Positions 15,043 to 39,481 of a DNA stretch of 64,000 nucleotides are shown one piece after another. Origin of the DNA: Amycolatopsis coloradensis (GTDB lineage Bacteria > Actinomycetota > Actinomycetes > Mycobacteriales > Pseudonocardiaceae). Made by a program: the position numbers and the translations under genes. Positions within the stretch are counted from its first letter, which is position 1. Each line of letters starts with the position of its first letter. The notes under the pieces are model-generated. The model saw only the letters and a program-made list of their open reading frames with translations. It was not told the DNA's origin and made no database searches. The stretch is from the NCBI RefSeq assembly GCF_037997115.1, contig NZ_CP150484.1, positions 7,263,589 through 7,327,588 on the forward strand, read 5' to 3'.

Positions 15043-16556
15043 TTCTTTCCTCCCAGCTCCGGAACCTCGTGCACCAGCGAGCCACCGTTGGCGGCGTCGC
15101 GTGCGACCTCGTAGGCGGCGCCGACGCGGTACAGCCGGTCGTCGGCCATCGCGGGGGCCATGATCTGGAGGCCGACCGGCAGGCCGTCCTCGTGCGACAG
15201 TCCACTCGGGACACTCATCGCGGCGTTGCCGGCGAGGTTCGACGGAATGGTGCAGAGGTCCGCCAGGTACATCGCCATCGGGTCGTCGACGCGTTCGCCG
15301 ATCTTGAACGCCGTGGTCGGCGTGGTCGGCGAGACCAGCACGTCCACCTTTTCGTAGGCGGCTTCGAAGTCCCGCGTGATGAGCGTGCGGACCTTCTGCG
15401 CCGAGCCGTAGTAGGCGTCGTAGTAGCCCGAGGACAGCGCGTACGTGCCGAGCATGATGCGGCGCTTGACCTCGGGGCCGAAGCCCTTCTCACGGGTCAG
15501 CGACATGACCTCTTCGGCGCTGTGCTCGCCGTCGTCGGACACGCGCAGGCCGTAGCGCATGGCGTCGAACCGGGCGAGGTTCGACGAGCACTCGCTCGGC
15601 GCGATCAGGTAGTACGCGGGCAGCGCGTAGGTGAAGTTCGGGCACGAGACCTCGACGACCTCGGCACCGAGCGCGCGCAGCTGCTCGACTGCGGCCTCGA
15701 AGGACCGCAACACGCCCGGCTGGTAGCCGTCGCCGGCGAATTCCTTGACTACGCCGACGCGGACGCCCTTGAGGTCACCGGTCAGGCCCTGGCGGGCCGC
15801 GGCGACCACCGGCGGGACCGGCGCGTCGATCGAGGTCGAGTCCATCGGGTCGTACCCGGCGATGACCTCGTGCAGCAGAGCGGCGTCGAGCACCGTCCGC
15901 GCGCAGGGACCGGCCTGGTCGAGCGACGACGAGAAGGCGACGAGACCGTAGCGGGAGACACCGCCGTACGTCGGCTTCACGCCGACGGTGCCGGTGACCG
16001 CGCCGGGCTGGCGGATCGAGCCACCGGTGTCGGTGCCGATCGCGATCGCGGCCTCGAACGCCGCGATGGAGGCCGAGGAGCCACCGCCGGACCCGCCGGG
16101 GATACGGGCGTGGTCCCACGGGTTGTGCGTCGGGCCGAACGCGGAGTTCTCCGTGGAGGAGCCCATCGCGAACTCGTCCATGTTGGTCTTGCCGAGCACC
16201 ACGACACCGGCCTCGCGCAGCTTGCGCGTCACGGTGGCGTCGTACGGCGGGAGCCAGTTCTCCAGGGTCTTCGAACCGACCGTGGTCGGGATGCCCTTGG
16301 TGGTCAGCACGTCCTTGAGCGCCAGCGGGACACCGGCGAGCGCCGACTTCGGCGCCTTGCCCTCGGCGACGTCGGCGTCCACCGCGCGGGCGGCTTCGAG
16401 CGCGCCCTCGGTGTCGACGTGCAGGAAGGCGTGGATGTGGTCGTCGACCTCGGCGATCCGGTCCAGGTGGGCCTGGGTGACCTCGACGGCCGAGACCTCT
16501 CGGGACTGGATCTTCTCCGCCAGCTCGGCGGCGGTCAGCTTGATGAGTTCGGTCAC
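15039..16556 (-). CDS. gatA: Asp/Glu-tRNA amidotransferase subunit A
   Basis: The amidase subunit that releases ammonia from glutamine for GatB. The catalytic Ser-cisSer-Lys triad is visible: Lys in GVPLALKDV (about 80), the [11 protein letters not shown] loop, and the nucleophile in [13 protein letters not shown] (about 178). At 505 residues it is full length. GTG 16556 overlaps the gatC stop by 4 bp. M. tuberculosis has pfkA between gatA and gatB; here they are fused into one overlapping unit without it. Confidence 0.97.
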
Positions 16557-34836: not shown

Positions 34837-35079
34837 GGGTCTACTTCGACCTCCCGTTGGTGGCCGGCGTCGGCCACGGGGCAACAGCTCTACTGGCCGG
34901 TAGATTAGGGCCATTTCAGTGCCGCGGCCCGCCGAGGTGACCTCATTCACCTGGATGCACGTTTTAGTGGGACCATCGTCCAGGTAATTCACCCGGAAGT
35001 GAGTGTTACCGGGCGACTAACCCGAACGGCCGTATTCCGGGGTACTCGTGGCGGGGGTGAGGCGATAGCCTGCCCGACC

Positions 35080-35931
35080 ATGCGTTCCTTGCCCGGCCCC
35101 GTCGCCGTGATCACGGACTCGACCGCCTGCCTCCCCGCCCCGGTCGCCGAACGCTGGGGAATCGGCGTCGTTCAGGTCCAACTGCAGGTCGGAGAGCAGT
35201 TCGACGAAGAGAACCGCTACGACCGCGAGGACATCATCGGCCATCTGCGCGCCGGGACCCCGGTGAAGACGGCGCCGCCCGAGGTCGCCGCGTTCTTCTG
35301 GGCGTTCCAGGACGCCGCGAGCAAGGGTGCCTCGGCGATCGTCAGCATCCACATCTCGGGCCGGATGTCGGAGACGGTGAACGCCGCCCGCGAGGCCGCT
35401 CAGCAGGTGAGCGTTCCCGTCCACGTTCTCGACAGCGGGACCACCGGGATGAGCCTCGGTTTCGCGGCGACCTCGGCGGCCAAGGTCGCCGCCGCCGGCG
35501 GGCAGGCGCCCCGGGTGATCGACGCCGCCGAACGCCGGTTCCGCGGCAGCCGGGAGATCCTTTACGTCGACACGCTGGAGTTCCTGCGCCGCGGCGGCCG
35601 GATCGGCGCCGCGCAGGCCTTCCTCGGCTCGGCGTTCTCGATCAAACCCCTGCTGACGGTGAAGAACGGCGAGGTCGCCCCGCTGACCCGGGTCCCGGGC
35701 CAGCGGCGGGCGCTCAACAAACTCGTCGACCTCGCGGTGGACTGCGCGGGCGATCAGGACGTGGAGGTCGCCATCACCCGGTTCGGCCCGGACGAACGCG
35801 ATCTCGAGATCGGCGGGCGGCTGCGGGCGCGGCTGCCGCAGATGGTCGACAGCACCCTGGTGGACGCCAGCATGATCCTCGGCGCCCACCTCGGTCCCGG
35901 CGCCATCGGCATCACGGTGTCGCCGGTGTAG
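35080..35931 (+). CDS. DegV family fatty-acid-binding protein
   Basis: A 283-residue DegV protein: VAVITDSTACLP at the start, SIHISGRMSETVNAAREAA, VLDSGTTGMSLGF and DTLEFLRRGGRIG. These proteins bind a fatty acid and, in Firmicutes, feed fatty-acid kinase; no fakA is visible here. ATG 35080 gives the conserved start; the ORF from 34999 runs through the etf promoter region. Its 3' end overlaps the next convergent gene by 20 bp. Confidence 0.88.
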   Translation: MRSLPGPVAVITDSTACLPAPVAERWGIGVVQVQLQVGEQFDEENRYDREDIIGHLRAGTPVKTAPPEVAAFFWAFQDAASKGASAIVSIHISGRMSETVNAAREAAQQVSVPVHVLDSGTTGMSLGFAATSAAKVAAAGGQAPRVIDAAERRFRGSREILYVDTLEFLRRGGRIGAAQAFLGSAFSIKPLLTVKNGEVAPLTRVPGQRRALNKLVDLAVDCAGDQDVEVAITRFGPDERDLEIGGRLRARLPQMVDSTLVDASMILGAHLGPGAIGITVSPV

Positions 35932-36334
35932 CCCGCTTCGAGGGGATCAGCGCCAGCACCACCGGGAGCACCGCGCCCAGCGCCGTCGTCACGACGATCA
36001 GCACCTGGTCCACCGGCTCGAAATGCGAGACGTGGCCGAGGTGGTAGAGGAAGTGCGGCAGTCCGAAGAGGAAGGTCGCGAGCGCCGCGAGCCTGGCCAC
36101 GGCGGTCGTCCCGATCACGGCGGCGCCGATCAGGATCACGGAAAGCGCCAGGTTGAGGCCGCCGAAGTCGCGGATCAGGTGTTCGTTGAAGGGGCCGTCC
36201 ATCGCCACCCAGCCGGTGCGGAACCCCGGGAAGTCCCGGTAGAAGCCGTCCGGGCCGAACAGCGGCCACAGCCCGACGGGCAGTTCGATGAGACCGAAGA
36301 CGACGAGCAGTACGCGCGTGAATGTCCGTTGCAT
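35912..36334 (-). CDS. Small four-segment membrane protein
   Basis: A 140-residue protein with four membrane segments (TRVLLVVFGLIELPVGLWPLF, LNLALSVILIGAAVIG, LAALATFLFGLPHFLYHLGHV, VLIVVTTALGAVLPVVLALI). No family recognised with confidence. The start is uncertain: ATG 36334 has AGGAGG only 1 nt upstream, too close for normal use. TTG 36370 is an alternative. It overlaps the degV 3' end by 20 bp, on the opposite strand. Confidence 0.6.
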   Translation of the reverse strand: MQRTFTRVLLVVFGLIELPVGLWPLFGPDGFYRDFPGFRTGWVAMDGPFNEHLIRDFGGLNLALSVILIGAAVIGTTAVARLAALATFLFGLPHFLYHLGHVSHFEPVDQVLIVVTTALGAVLPVVLALIPSKRATPATP

Positions 36335-36420
36335 ACCTCCTGGACTGGACAGCGCCGCGAAACGTGACAAGCCGGTACGGCACGCGCGCTTCGAACACCT
36401 GGTCTGCGATTATGTTGATT

Positions 36421-37600
36421 ATGACCAAAGATCTCGCCGAACTGCTGGGTACCCAGGAGACCGTCAACCTGGAGTTCAAGCAGTCCGGCAAGGATCGGGA
36501 CGTGCTTCGCAAGGCGATCTGCGCGCTGGCCAACGACCTGGCGCAGAAGGGCGTCGGACACCTGCTCATCGGGGTCGACAAGCACGGAGCTCCTTGTTGA
36601 AGACGTCGATACCAGTGATGACGAACTACTTCGCTACACGGACCTTCGCGAGGACGGTCAGATTCTGGATCGGCCGTCGATGACCGTCGAGGCGGCCGAG
36701 TACCGGGGCAAGCCGATCGTGCACATCGAGGTCCGGACGTCCTCGACGCCTCCGGTCAGGTACAAGGGGATCACCTGGGTTCGCCCGGGACCCACCACCC
36801 GCAAGGCCAGTCGCGATGACGAAAGGGTCCTGAGCGAACGCCGGAGAGCGGCAGATCTGCCGTACGACAGCCGTCCAGTGGAGATCGCCACAATCGACGA
36901 CCTCGACCTGGCTCTGTTCAGGTCCGACTACCTCCCCTCCTTTGTGGCGCCCGAGGTGATCGAAGAAAACGGTCGCTCGGCCGCTCAACAGCTCACCTCA
37001 CTGCGCCTCGCCGGCCCCGAAGGAAAACCCACAGTTTTAGGCTTGCTCGTTCTAGGCTTGGATCCGAGCGCGCATCTGCCTGGCGCCTATGTACAGTTCA
37101 TCCGTTACCGAGGAAAGGACTTGGACGCACCGATCGCCGACGATCAGGAAATGCGTTCGAATCTCATCGGCACCGCAACCCGACTGGCCGCAGTGCTTCG
37201 CGGCCACCTCCACACGAGTCTGACGGAGGTCCAGGGGTTTCGTGAAGAACAGGCGCCTGACTACCCCTTCGAGGCCCTCCGAGAGGCCTGCATGAACGCG
37301 ATCATGCATCGGAACTATGAGAACTCGAACGCCCCGGTGCGGATCGCTTGGTTCGATGACCGGATTGAGATCACCAATCCGGGCGGGCCTTTCGGCCAGG
37401 TCCGAGCCGACAACTTCGACCGCGTGAACGACTACCGGAACCCATCATTGGCAGCCGCTATGAAGTCGCTCGGGTATGTGAACCGATTCGGCAGGGGAAT
37501 CGGAAGAATTCGCGCAGCTCTTGAACGCAATGGAAACCCCGAACCCGAATTCGTCGTGGACGCATCCTCATGGTCTGTCACTATCAGGAGGACCAAGTGA
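36421..37600 (+). pseudogene. Frameshifted AlbA_2 (Schlafen-like) / HATPase_c_4 gene
   Basis: The gene is open in two frames. 36421-36597 encodes MTKDLAELLGTQETVNLEFKQSGKDRDVLRKAICALANDLAQKGVGHLLIGVD, an AlbA_2 N-terminus, and stops at TGA 36595. One base out of frame, the reading resumes around 36585 (ELLVEDVDTSDDELL) and runs to 37600. It ends with an HATPase_c_4 module (EALREACMNAIMHRNYENS, DDRIEITNPGG, RFGRGIGRI), as in COG2865 proteins. A single extra base near AAGCACGGAGCTCC explains it: mutation, sequencing error or programmed shift. It contains a TTA codon at 37037-37039. Base composition and codon use look unlike the neighbours. Confidence 0.8.
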
Positions 37601-38646
37601 CCTCGGTCGCCATGTTCAACAATAAGGGCGGCGTAGGCAAGACGACGCTAACTTACCATCTCGCTCACATGCTTCAGCGACTGGGAAAACGGGTACTCGC
37701 CGTCGACCTCGATCCTCAGTCCAATCTCACCGCGCAATTTCTGGACGAGGACGAACTCGCGATTCTGTGGCACGAGCCGCAGAGCCCGGCGTGGTCCGCG
37801 GAAACACCGAAGTATCGGGTCTGGAGTCCTGTCACCGAAGACACAGGAACGATCGCGACCGCTCTCACTCCGATCCGAGAGGGCCTGGGCGATATTGCAC
37901 CTTCGCAGCCGGTGCGGATCACCGACGGGCTGTGGTTGCTCCCAGGCGACCTGGAGCTGAGTTCCTATGAAGACCGACTCTCGGAGGCTTGGGGCAAGTG
38001 CTTCACCGGTGATCCAGCCGCTCTCCGGGCTACGACGGCGTTCCATCGACTGATCGCCCATGCACAACGCGAGGTCGATGCCGAGATCGTACTCATCGAC
38101 GTAGGCCCGAACCTGGGAGCCATCAACAGGGCGGCACTCCTCTCCGCGGACACCGTTCTCACTCCGCTGGCCGCAGACCTGTTCTCGCTACGCGGGCTCC
38201 ACAATCTCGGCCCCACCCTGCGGAGTTGGCGAAAGACTTGGCAGCAAACCGTACTTCCGAACGCGCCGTCCTCGATATCCACCCCGCCTGGCGCCATGCG
38301 CCCACTCGGCTACGTGATCAGGCAACCCGTCATGCACCTAGACCGGCCGGTCAAGGCCTATCAGCGTTGGCTGGATCGCATTCCCGCCGTCTATCGCGAC
38401 GCCGTGCTAGACAATGACACGTCCGCAGATAGCGACTTCGAGATCGCCACGATGCGGAACTACCAGAGCCTCATGCCGCTGGCACACGATGCCCGTAAGC
38501 CGATGTTCGAGTTGCGTTCAGCGGACGGCGCCCTGGGCAGCACGCAGACCCTCGTACAACGCTGTCATCAGGAGTTCAAGGCGCTGTCGGAAACCCTGTT
38601 GGACCGCCTGGCAGCACCTGAGACGTCGACCCCGAGGCCCCGGTAG
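37597..38646 (+). CDS. ParA-family ATPase
   Basis: A 349-residue ParA/MinD-type ATPase. The deviant Walker A is FNNKGGVGKTTLTYHLA (residues about 6-22), the A' motif VLAVDLDPQSNLTAQFL, and Walker B VLIDVGPNLGAINRAAL. The insert between them is longer than in plasmid ParA, and the C-terminus (DRPVKAYQRWLDRIPAVYRDAV...) is extended. GTG 37597 overlaps the upstream stop (GTGA) and has a strong AGGAGG at 37586-37591. No parB or centromere repeats are adjacent, so plasmid partition is unlikely; it probably works with the AlbA_2 protein. Confidence 0.85.
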   Translation: MTSVAMFNNKGGVGKTTLTYHLAHMLQRLGKRVLAVDLDPQSNLTAQFLDEDELAILWHEPQSPAWSAETPKYRVWSPVTEDTGTIATALTPIREGLGDIAPSQPVRITDGLWLLPGDLELSSYEDRLSEAWGKCFTGDPAALRATTAFHRLIAHAQREVDAEIVLIDVGPNLGAINRAALLSADTVLTPLAADLFSLRGLHNLGPTLRSWRKTWQQTVLPNAPSSISTPPGAMRPLGYVIRQPVMHLDRPVKAYQRWLDRIPAVYRDAVLDNDTSADSDFEIATMRNYQSLMPLAHDARKPMFELRSADGALGSTQTLVQRCHQEFKALSETLLDRLAAPETSTPRPR

Positions 38647-38707
38647 GCGAAGCTCGCAAACCGAGAGTGACACGCGGGTCGAAGTGACCGGCCGGTAGGG
38701 TCGCGGC

Positions 38708-39481
38708 GTGACCACCCCAGCCACCAGGGCCGAAGCGCTGCACCTCACCGGTGAACGCACCGTGCCGGGCATCGCCGAGGAAAACTATTGGTACCGCCGC
38801 CACGAGGCCGCGTATCAAAAGCTCCTGCCCCTGTGCGAAGGCAGGACCGTCCTGGAAGCCGGGTGCGGTGAGGGCTACGGCGCCGGGCTCATCGCCACGG
38901 TCGCCGAGCGGGTGCTCGCGCTCGACTACGACATCCCCACCACCGAGCACGTCGCCCGCCGCTACCCCGGCATCGGCGTGGCCAGGGCGAACCTGGTGTT
39001 CCTGCCGCTGCGGGACGCGTCGGTCGACGTCGTCGCCAACTTCCAGGTGATCGAGCACCTCTGGGACCAGGGTGCCTTCCTCGCCGAATGCCGCCGCGTG
39101 CTCTCCCCCGGCGGACGGCTGATCGTCACCACACCCAACCGGCTGACCTTCACCCCGGACAGCGACACTCCGCTCAACCCGTTCCACACCAGGGAACTCG
39201 CACCGTCCGAATTGGACGAACTGCTGCGTGAAGCCGGTTTCGAGGTCGAGACGCTGCACGGCCTCCACCACGGCGAGGGCGTCGCGAAGCTCGACGCCAA
39301 GTACAACGGCTCGATCATCGACGCGCAGCTCGACGTCGTCATGGGGCAGCTGCCCGGGCAGGCGACCTGGCCGGCGGAACTGCTCGCCGATGTCGAAGCC
39401 ATCCAGGCCGCGGATTTCGCCATCCACGGTGAGGACCTCGACGCCAGCCTCGACCTCGTGGCCGTGGCGGTGCGCCCATGA
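38708..39481 (+). CDS. SAM-dependent methyltransferase (Rv3030-like)
   Basis: A 257-residue class I methyltransferase: VLEAGCGEGYGAGLIA (SAM motif I), VLALDYD, then VVANFQVIEHLWDQGAFLAECRRVLSPGGRLIVTTPN. It matches Rv3030 in place and in having GH57 and GT4 genes downstream; in mycobacteria this locus serves methylglucose lipopolysaccharide. GTG 38708 lies 6 nt after TAGGGT (38696-38701), so the transcript is probably leaderless. Confidence 0.87.
   Translation: MTTPATRAEALHLTGERTVPGIAEENYWYRRHEAAYQKLLPLCEGRTVLEAGCGEGYGAGLIATVAERVLALDYDIPTTEHVARRYPGIGVARANLVFLPLRDASVDVVANFQVIEHLWDQGAFLAECRRVLSPGGRLIVTTPNRLTFTPDSDTPLNPFHTRELAPSELDELLREAGFEVETLHGLHHGEGVAKLDAKYNGSIIDAQLDVVMGQLPGQATWPAELLADVEAIQAADFAIHGEDLDASLDLVAVAVRP

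Follow-up and report, generated by a model that had tools for sequence, protein, structure and literature searches.

What does a ParA-like ATPase do when its gene is coupled to that of a putative nuclease? The question is raised by a two-gene cassette of Amycolatopsis coloradensis, which lies in a 64,000-nucleotide stretch of contig NZ_CP150484.1 (positions 7,263,589 to 7,327,588, forward strand; hereafter the window) of a 9.06-Mb, single-contig genome. Gene 1 encodes a Schlafen/AlbA_2 domain and an HATPase_c_4 domain, and gene 2 encodes the ParA-like ATPase. An earlier note on the sequence had judged the pair unlike a partition system and suggested a defence or nucleic-acid-sensing module. 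We find that members of one ATPase family are linked with enzymes of four unrelated types, of which gene 1 represents one. On balance we favour a reading in which an exchangeable toxic enzyme is held back, and set off, by the ParA-like ATPase, probably in abortive defence.

The gene pair recurs in other genomes

A scan of genome contigs returned at least 580 relatives of the ParA-like ATPase, of which the best 80 were examined. Directly upstream of the ATPase gene, 74 of these 80 carry a homologue of gene 1. Their hosts bear 19 phylum labels, single ones of which may be wrong because most hosts are metagenome bins. The co-occurrence that the earlier note had proposed looking for is present, with the same order and close spacing: among 60 intact pairs, the distance from gene 1 to the ATPase gene is −4 in 30 and +11 in 16. 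The pairwise divergences of the two proteins are correlated across these pairs (r=0.729), and 0 of 2000 permutations reached a value as high.

The Schlafen–ParA module is sparse and patchy. Both proteins lie adjacent, at E below 1e-100, in 3 of 100 genomes searched (its own included), and 27 more of those 100 hold weaker AlbA_2/HATPase matches. In a phylum sample of 396 genomes, the ATPase reaches E≤1e-40 in at least five, its own again included, which is a lower bound since only five candidates were scored per genome. Gene 1 is present in 7 of 120 genomes of the family, counting its own, and three of the seven copies lack AlbA_2. Intact pairs were found in genomes G009, G065, G504, G565 and G574, and another in Streptomyces zinciresistens K42 (L109:4808-7074).

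Gene 1 encodes a putative Schlafen-type nuclease

Gene 1 comprises, in order, a Schlafen/AlbA_2 domain, a middle region and an HATPase_c_4 domain; intact copies are usually ~395–400 amino acids (aa) long and end after the HATPase domain. SLFN_AlbA_2 (PF04326) matches intact relatives at 4.1e-18 and 2.4e-15, and sequence comparison picked out 3lmm and 2kyy as relatives of solved structure. Among the 60 intact copies, E16 and E21 are each present in all 60 and D57 in 56. Rat SLFN13 is reported to require E205, E210 and D248 (PMC5862951), and the E16/E21 spacing of 5 equals that of E205 and E210. Judged by spacing rather than structure, E16, E21 and D57 are the putative counterparts of the SLFN13 acidic residues.

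The window copy of gene 1 is frameshifted. Its AlbA_2 piece runs into a stop at 36600, and a different frame is open for the rest of the gene, placing the lesion inside the nuclease domain. The AlbA_2-like start and HATPase_c_4 end described in the earlier note were both recovered by Pfam, but gene 1 is not one open frame. From 36680 to 37597 it is 81% identical to the intact gene 1 of locus L063. Both conserved glutamates are kept, and position 57 is a lysine instead of aspartate.

Of the 74 copies of gene 1, 60 are intact and one is unassigned; the other 13 lack a single full frame, in one case through a cut at a contig end. ATPase frames are mostly open, with 5 of 80 short. Damage falling on gene 1 fits a toxic arm, as weak evidence, because the loci were picked by their ATPase and many come from metagenome bins. 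A second, weaker gene-1-like stretch (HATPase part, 5.2e-23; L196:3025-3825, minus-strand reading) lies beside the intact pair of G109.

Gene 2 is an intact ParA-like ATPase

The reading frame of gene 2 is intact, as is its P-loop, KGGVGKTT. Its start overlaps the stop of gene 1 in the sequence GTGA (37597-37600), behind an AGGAGG, just as the earlier note had described (Table 1). Gene 2 also matches phrog_164, and the family alignment has invariant residues in the C-terminal region. The first of its 24 solved relatives is the uncharacterised 3pg5 (E 8.7e-52, full length), and the nearest named ones are segregation proteins and Soj. A "putative regulatory protein" of the filamentous phage Pf1 (AY324828.1:1018-1947) is 28% identical over 90% of the ATPase (E 1e-17).

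The signs of a partition system were sought and did not appear. No ParB domain was found in the six cassette and flank proteins scanned, and no repeat array or centromere-like repeats in 36000-39000, in keeping with the ParA-like ATPase without ParB or centromere repeats that had been noted before; in those six proteins the parB of a plasmid remnant is likewise missing. NCBIfam partition models scored far under their cut-offs (64.9 of 180 bits and 67.5 of 348 bits). On these three grounds we rejected a ParABS partition system. Gene 2 has its P-loop and fold family in common with the ParA/Soj partition ATPases, but it is longer, carries the C-terminal invariant region and is partnered by an enzyme gene, with no ParB seen. 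The pairing with an AlbA_2/HATPase protein is, as first judged, unlike a partition system.

Related ATPases carry other enzymes

Different neighbours accompany ATPases that can be aligned with gene 2 over their full length at ~26–38% identity. An HEPN_RiboL-PSP protein follows the ATPase in G035, G040, G075 and G093, in the last two under the Pfam cut-off; further HEPN partners occur in G050 (by profile match) and on a Burkholderia glumae plasmid (named in the record). SIR2_2 follows the ATPase in G022, and SIR2 genes do so on Salmonella, Vibrio and Spirosoma plasmids. The Salmonella ParA–SIR2 DNA had no match in the E. coli genomes searched. Viral contigs held 111 ATPase relatives, and 60 of the best 80 were classified, leaving out 20 weaker or partial ones: 21 have a SIR2 partner, 21 a RelA/SpoT-family partner, two a Schlafen and one an HEPN, and 15 have no recognised partner. 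Example partners were identified by Pfam RelA_SpoT, SIR2_2 and HEPN_RiboL-PSP, and others were typed by profiles built from such partners; for viral RelA/SpoT partners, the Pfam check covered two proteins. Many of the HEPN, SIR2 and RelA/SpoT pairs lie on plasmids or viral contigs.

Catalytic motifs are conserved in each partner type. RxxxxH is present in 7/7 HEPN partners, GxGxS in 24/25 and an HG motif in 25/25 SIR2 partners, and an EIQVRT-type motif in 20/21 RelA/SpoT partners, the exception being an 84-aa fragment.

Partner types also group together in the ATPase tree. The tree has 98 rows, with Schlafen rows thinned to 24 and short rows and four unoriented loci dropped, and each group has one to three partnerless rows inside. 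Across five labels (four partners and none), the tree requires 10 label changes, against a shuffled mean of 56.8. In an earlier tree, built from 95 rows, the Schlafen, HEPN and SIR2 partners grouped likewise.

Schlafen, HEPN, SIR2 and RelA/SpoT enzymes are known as growth-arresting or suicidal effectors. The occurrence of the same ATPase family with three other toxin-like partners suggests a toxin-control or phage-defence module, not DNA partitioning.

Several of these loci have features of their own. In viral loci L210-L212, L217-L223, L225-L228, L231, L233, L234, L236 and L246-L248, a RelA/SpoT-family protein, in most cases 218-250 aa long, comes after the ATPase. These are possibly toxSAS-like pairs: this branch has a RelA/SpoT-family enzyme in common with toxSAS-type alarmone synthetase toxin systems and differs from them in its ParA-like partner ATPase. 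A ParA–SIR2 pair at L187:3905-6919 is preceded by an annotated DNA methyltransferase gene, and those of L241, L244 and L245 have an ORF (open reading frame) of ~375 aa directly upstream.

The cassette is an insert in host DNA

The earlier note had placed a 2.3-kb cassette inside a conserved gene order, and comparison with the same genus bears this out. The insert measures ~2.30 kb, and no cassette-matching DNA was found at 29 other methyltransferase loci, all of the same genus (29 of 47 other genomes with a methyltransferase match, compared over ~1.5 kb per side). In near relatives (L079, L084, L085 and L087) the left and right flanks are joined directly. A direct repeat, GTGACA, bounds the insert (36364-36369 and 38667-38672), and the cassette ends in one copy. 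No integrase gene was seen within the cassette. G009 lacks the cassette at its methyltransferase locus and has an intact pair elsewhere in its genome.

The flanks belong to the host. The methyltransferase gene has a match at E≤1e-60 in 48 of 60 genomes searched, and the DNA of the DUF4345-like gene is common to most of the 29 compared loci. Methyltransferase domains are recognised by Pfam; "Rv3030-like" is a label of the earlier note alone. Two close relatives, L076 and L081, have no DNA matching the DUF4345-like gene, and degV there adjoins the methyltransferase gene. At the empty intergenic site, L077, L078, L080, L083 and L086 have differing short hairpin-like palindromes, seen by eye.

Table 1. 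Coordinates of the cassette and its flanking genes in the window.
Feature	Position	Strand	Basis
Inserted cassette, ~2.30 kb	36370..38672	.	Empty sites in near relatives; 0/29 compared loci match it
Gene 1, AlbA_2/Schlafen piece	36412..36600	+	Start ATG 36412 or 36421; SLFN_AlbA_2 6.2e-7; homology to intact L063 gene 1
Gene 1, remainder with HATPase_c_4, different frame	~36605..37600	+	HATPase_c_4 6e-21
Gene 2 ribosome-binding site, AGGAGG	37586..37591	+	Sequence; five bases upstream of GTG
Gene 2, ParA-like ATPase, 349 aa, GTG start	37597..38646	+	AAA_31 1.7e-28; full-length family alignments
Left-flank degV-family gene, host	35074..35931	+	Pfam DegV 5.1e-64
Left-flank DUF4345-like gene, host	35912..36370	-	DUF4345 23.4 bits, under Pfam cut-off 26.5
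Right-flank methyltransferase gene, host	38708..39481	+	Methyltransf_11 5.9e-18

Codon use is mostly foreign. The two long cassette pieces have codon adaptation values of 0.416 and 0.419, against 0.617-0.870 in 47 window genes, which accords with the codon use first described; the short AlbA_2 piece (51 codons) is native-looking at 0.785. The 47 reference genes are those left by a filter on GC content at third codon positions (GC3>0.75); of the three ORFs that it took out, two belong to the cassette.

The site between degV and the methyltransferase gene is also occupied in other genera. G504, of another genus in the same family, has an intact pair there, and G551, G514 and G598, of a third genus, have an open AlbA_2-less gene 1 remnant at the same site without ParA (L286:1396-2304, L287 and L288). 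Of the five copies at this site, four have a severed or missing AlbA_2 part, and the AlbA_2-less HATPase gene is perhaps domesticated in the third genus. The five copies form no resolved clade, and the copy nearest to that of the window is the one that G009 carries at another location (82.6%); we therefore set aside vertical descent at the site. Because the G551 remnant has a native-looking composition (GC3 0.97) and the window copy does not, we lean towards repeated use of the degV–methyltransferase site, which may be an insertion hotspot or an old locus.

Two further observations concern the host sequence. An exact 30-base copy of the 3' end of gene 2 (38597-38626, E 4.2e-7) lies at G000:C1:512289-512318 (L002:1501-1530; L073), ~66 bases from a tRNA-Pro gene and next to an ambiguous base; it may be a remnant or an assembly or finishing artefact. 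The window also has a tRNA-Sec gene at 15941-16033, predicted by ARAGORN.

Genes around the pair

The earlier note had proposed scoring the neighbourhoods for defence genes, and a place beside such genes found no clear support. We scanned 130 flanking ORFs, of 133 picked approximately from the 80 loci, with PADLOC models at E≤1e-20. Nineteen models matched, with mad3 in six ORFs, mad8 in five, SoFic in three and the other 16 in one each, which are few matches for a set taken without a matched control. Among nine re-scanned proteins, mad3/mad8 matches came from L127 and L133 only. A link to MADS was rejected on tracing the L127 matches to the ATP-binding cassette (ABC) part of a UvrA-like protein, and the two commonest matches, mad3 and mad8, appear to be at least partly ABC cross-matches. 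The cassette itself matches PADLOC models in part only: pAgo-associated ones, and PDC-M28B at its P-loop.

Discussion

In the reading that we favour, the cassette would represent, in degraded form, a two-gene toxin/effector module that occurs across many phyla. The product of gene 1 would be a Schlafen-type nuclease with a GHKL ATPase domain attached and with tRNA or rRNA as its probable target, and the ParA-like ATPase of gene 2 would hold it in check and serve as its switch. A changed nucleotide or DNA-bound state of the ATPase, most likely on phage infection, would be the trigger, and the freed nuclease would stop translation and abort the infection. Other branches of the ATPase would likewise control an HEPN RNase, a SIR2 NADase or a RelA/SpoT-type synthetase. 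With gene 1 broken in the sequence as it stands, the module probably does not work in this genome. Of the defence or nucleic-acid-sensing module first suggested, a nuclease plus a switch ATPase looks likely, and a defence-gene neighbourhood is not supported. We infer the nuclease activity, its toxicity, its inhibition by the ATPase, the trigger and the role in defence, the last mainly from the exchangeable effector partners.

Several observations weigh against this reading. Apart from its frameshift, window gene 1 departs from the putative E-E-D active site at position 57. Most flanking genes to which Pfam tallies or inspection by eye gave a name have housekeeping roles (uvrA, gyrA-, mutS- and pdhA-like); many are left unnamed, and no system in PADLOC 2.0.0 matches both cassette components. 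Gene 1 is missing beside six of the best 80 ParA relatives, including two close ones from Frankia, and no ParA match was found in the DNA examined for two gene 1 relatives of viral contigs, those of L199 (38% identity) and L201 (26%). The AlbA_2-less gene 1 stays open without ParA, so its HATPase part may have a use of its own. Among the partners, 9 of 101 ParA relatives in the survey and the 15 of 60 viral ATPases (five of these 15 at a contig end) have no recognised one, and the SIR2 motif [TS][QTL]N[FIYW]D is present in only 10/25. As a separate observation, the L199 gene 1 relative (L199:4917-6476, 519 aa) has a C-terminal extension resembling a winged helix-turn-helix and lies behind an integrase-like ORF, both seen by eye.

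Parts of this picture are already known: bacterial Schlafen-type nucleases, the HEPN–ParA dyad, AlbA_2/HATPase growth arrest and ParA-like domains in predicted conflict systems. An HEPN (MAE_18760)–ParA/Soj dyad was proposed as a toxin-antitoxin in 2013 (PMC3710099). In that dyad an effector gene adjoins a ParA-like ATPase gene, as in the cassette, whose effector is instead a Schlafen/HATPase protein encoded upstream, not downstream. Family likeness to the dyad runs through the HEPN-linked ATPases found here, not the published examples; these ATPases align full length with gene 2 at 27-30% identity, four aligned ones have the P-loop KGGVSKTT versus KGGVGKTT in gene 2, and Pfam calls their HEPN partners RiboL-PSP. 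An HEPN protein with RxxxxH is absent as the partner in the cassette, where that place is taken by SLFN_AlbA_2 plus HATPase_c_4; HEPN belongs to another clade.

Schlafen RNases with a minimal histidine kinase domain have been reported in bacteriophage exclusion (BREX) loci (PMC12839542). They resemble gene 1 in a Schlafen/AlbA_2 domain followed by a GHKL-type ATPase domain; gene 1 differs in its intact length, in ending after the HATPase domain and in its ParA-like partner. No BREX model was among the PADLOC matches to the 130 flanking ORFs. MinD/ParA-like domains also occur in predicted NTP-dependent conflict systems (PMC7159879), where a ParA-type domain is likewise present; there they are domains holding the effector position of larger systems and are predicted inactive, whereas gene 2 is a separate protein with an intact P-loop. 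Among the papers listed, literature searches found neither Schlafen–, SIR2– or RelA/SpoT–ParA pairs nor the unity of the ATPase family, in a scope that had preprints outside it and some narrow queries; a preprint on bacterial Schlafens may cover part of these findings.

The alternative that survives best, and that we consider rather probable, concerns this copy only and is compatible with a toxin and its switch: the copy is a decaying remnant, or gene 1 is apparently broken through sequencing error. Decay is suggested by the frameshift in AlbA_2 together with the lysine at conserved position 57, by the split or loss of gene 1 in L105 and in three genomes of another genus, and by the 13 of 74 copies that are not one full frame; error is possible because ambiguous bases occur elsewhere in the genome. 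Gene 2, intact behind a strong ribosome-binding site, and the intact pairs of other genomes speak the other way.

For the module as a whole, a selfish toxin-antitoxin pair, with gene 1 as toxin and the ParA-like protein as antitoxin, kept by addiction and having no anti-phage role, seems to us unlikely. Such a pair would account for the tight coupling of the two genes, the patchy distribution, the neighbours unlike defence islands and the family members on plasmids and viral contigs. However, Schlafen, HEPN, SIR2 and RelA/SpoT partners fit conditional effectors at least as well, a 330-350-aa ATPase is large for a plain antitoxin, and carriage by phages often means inter-phage defence.

More doubtful still is a growth or stress regulator, in which the AlbA_2/HATPase protein would sense a physical or nucleotide signal and arrest growth, in the way that TrlG responds to temperature. 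This protein, from the Temperature Restricting Locus (TRL) of Photorhabdus, has an N-terminal AlbA_2 and a C-terminal HATPase_c_4 like gene 1, and the restriction of growth at 36 C depends on it: mutants in trlG are able to grow at that temperature, and supplying the operon brings the restriction back (PMC7554251). Its operon partners are TrlF, annotated as a histidinol phosphatase, and the 79-aa TrlR, with no ParA. Neither trlF nor trlR lies beside gene 1 in the window, whose neighbours are the ParA-like, methyltransferase, DUF4345-like and degV genes, and the sparse, patchy distribution of the module also counts against such a regulator.

Very improbable is an orphan partition or positioning ATPase with a DNA-binding partner, for which the ParA-type domain (Pfam AAA_31, phrog_164) and the kinship with segregation proteins and Soj speak, but against which stand, beside the missing ParB and repeats and the low NCBIfam scores, partners that are enzymes with conserved catalytic motifs, a Vibrio plasmid whose ParA–SIR2 pair has a separate ParA–ParB pair nearby, and an IncX1 plasmid relative (a doubtful long-branch member) with a separate ParA–ParG.

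A broader proposal, which we put forward tentatively, is that the ATPase family serves generally to switch defence effectors, each clade having taken up an unrelated toxic enzyme, and that it forms an unrecognised modular immune class. The partition-type ATPase would perhaps sense the state of the nucleoid or nucleotide levels and decide when the effector fires. If true, this would raise the question of whether one ATPase family controls unrelated effectors by one mechanism. It would unite the HEPN–ParA dyad with AlbA_2/HATPase growth arrest, and would give a vertebrate antiviral family a further bacterial counterpart, in the form of a Schlafen-type system. A fold known from the movement of DNA would then also be in common use, across many phyla and in the genomes of phages, for turning toxic enzymes of four kinds on and off.

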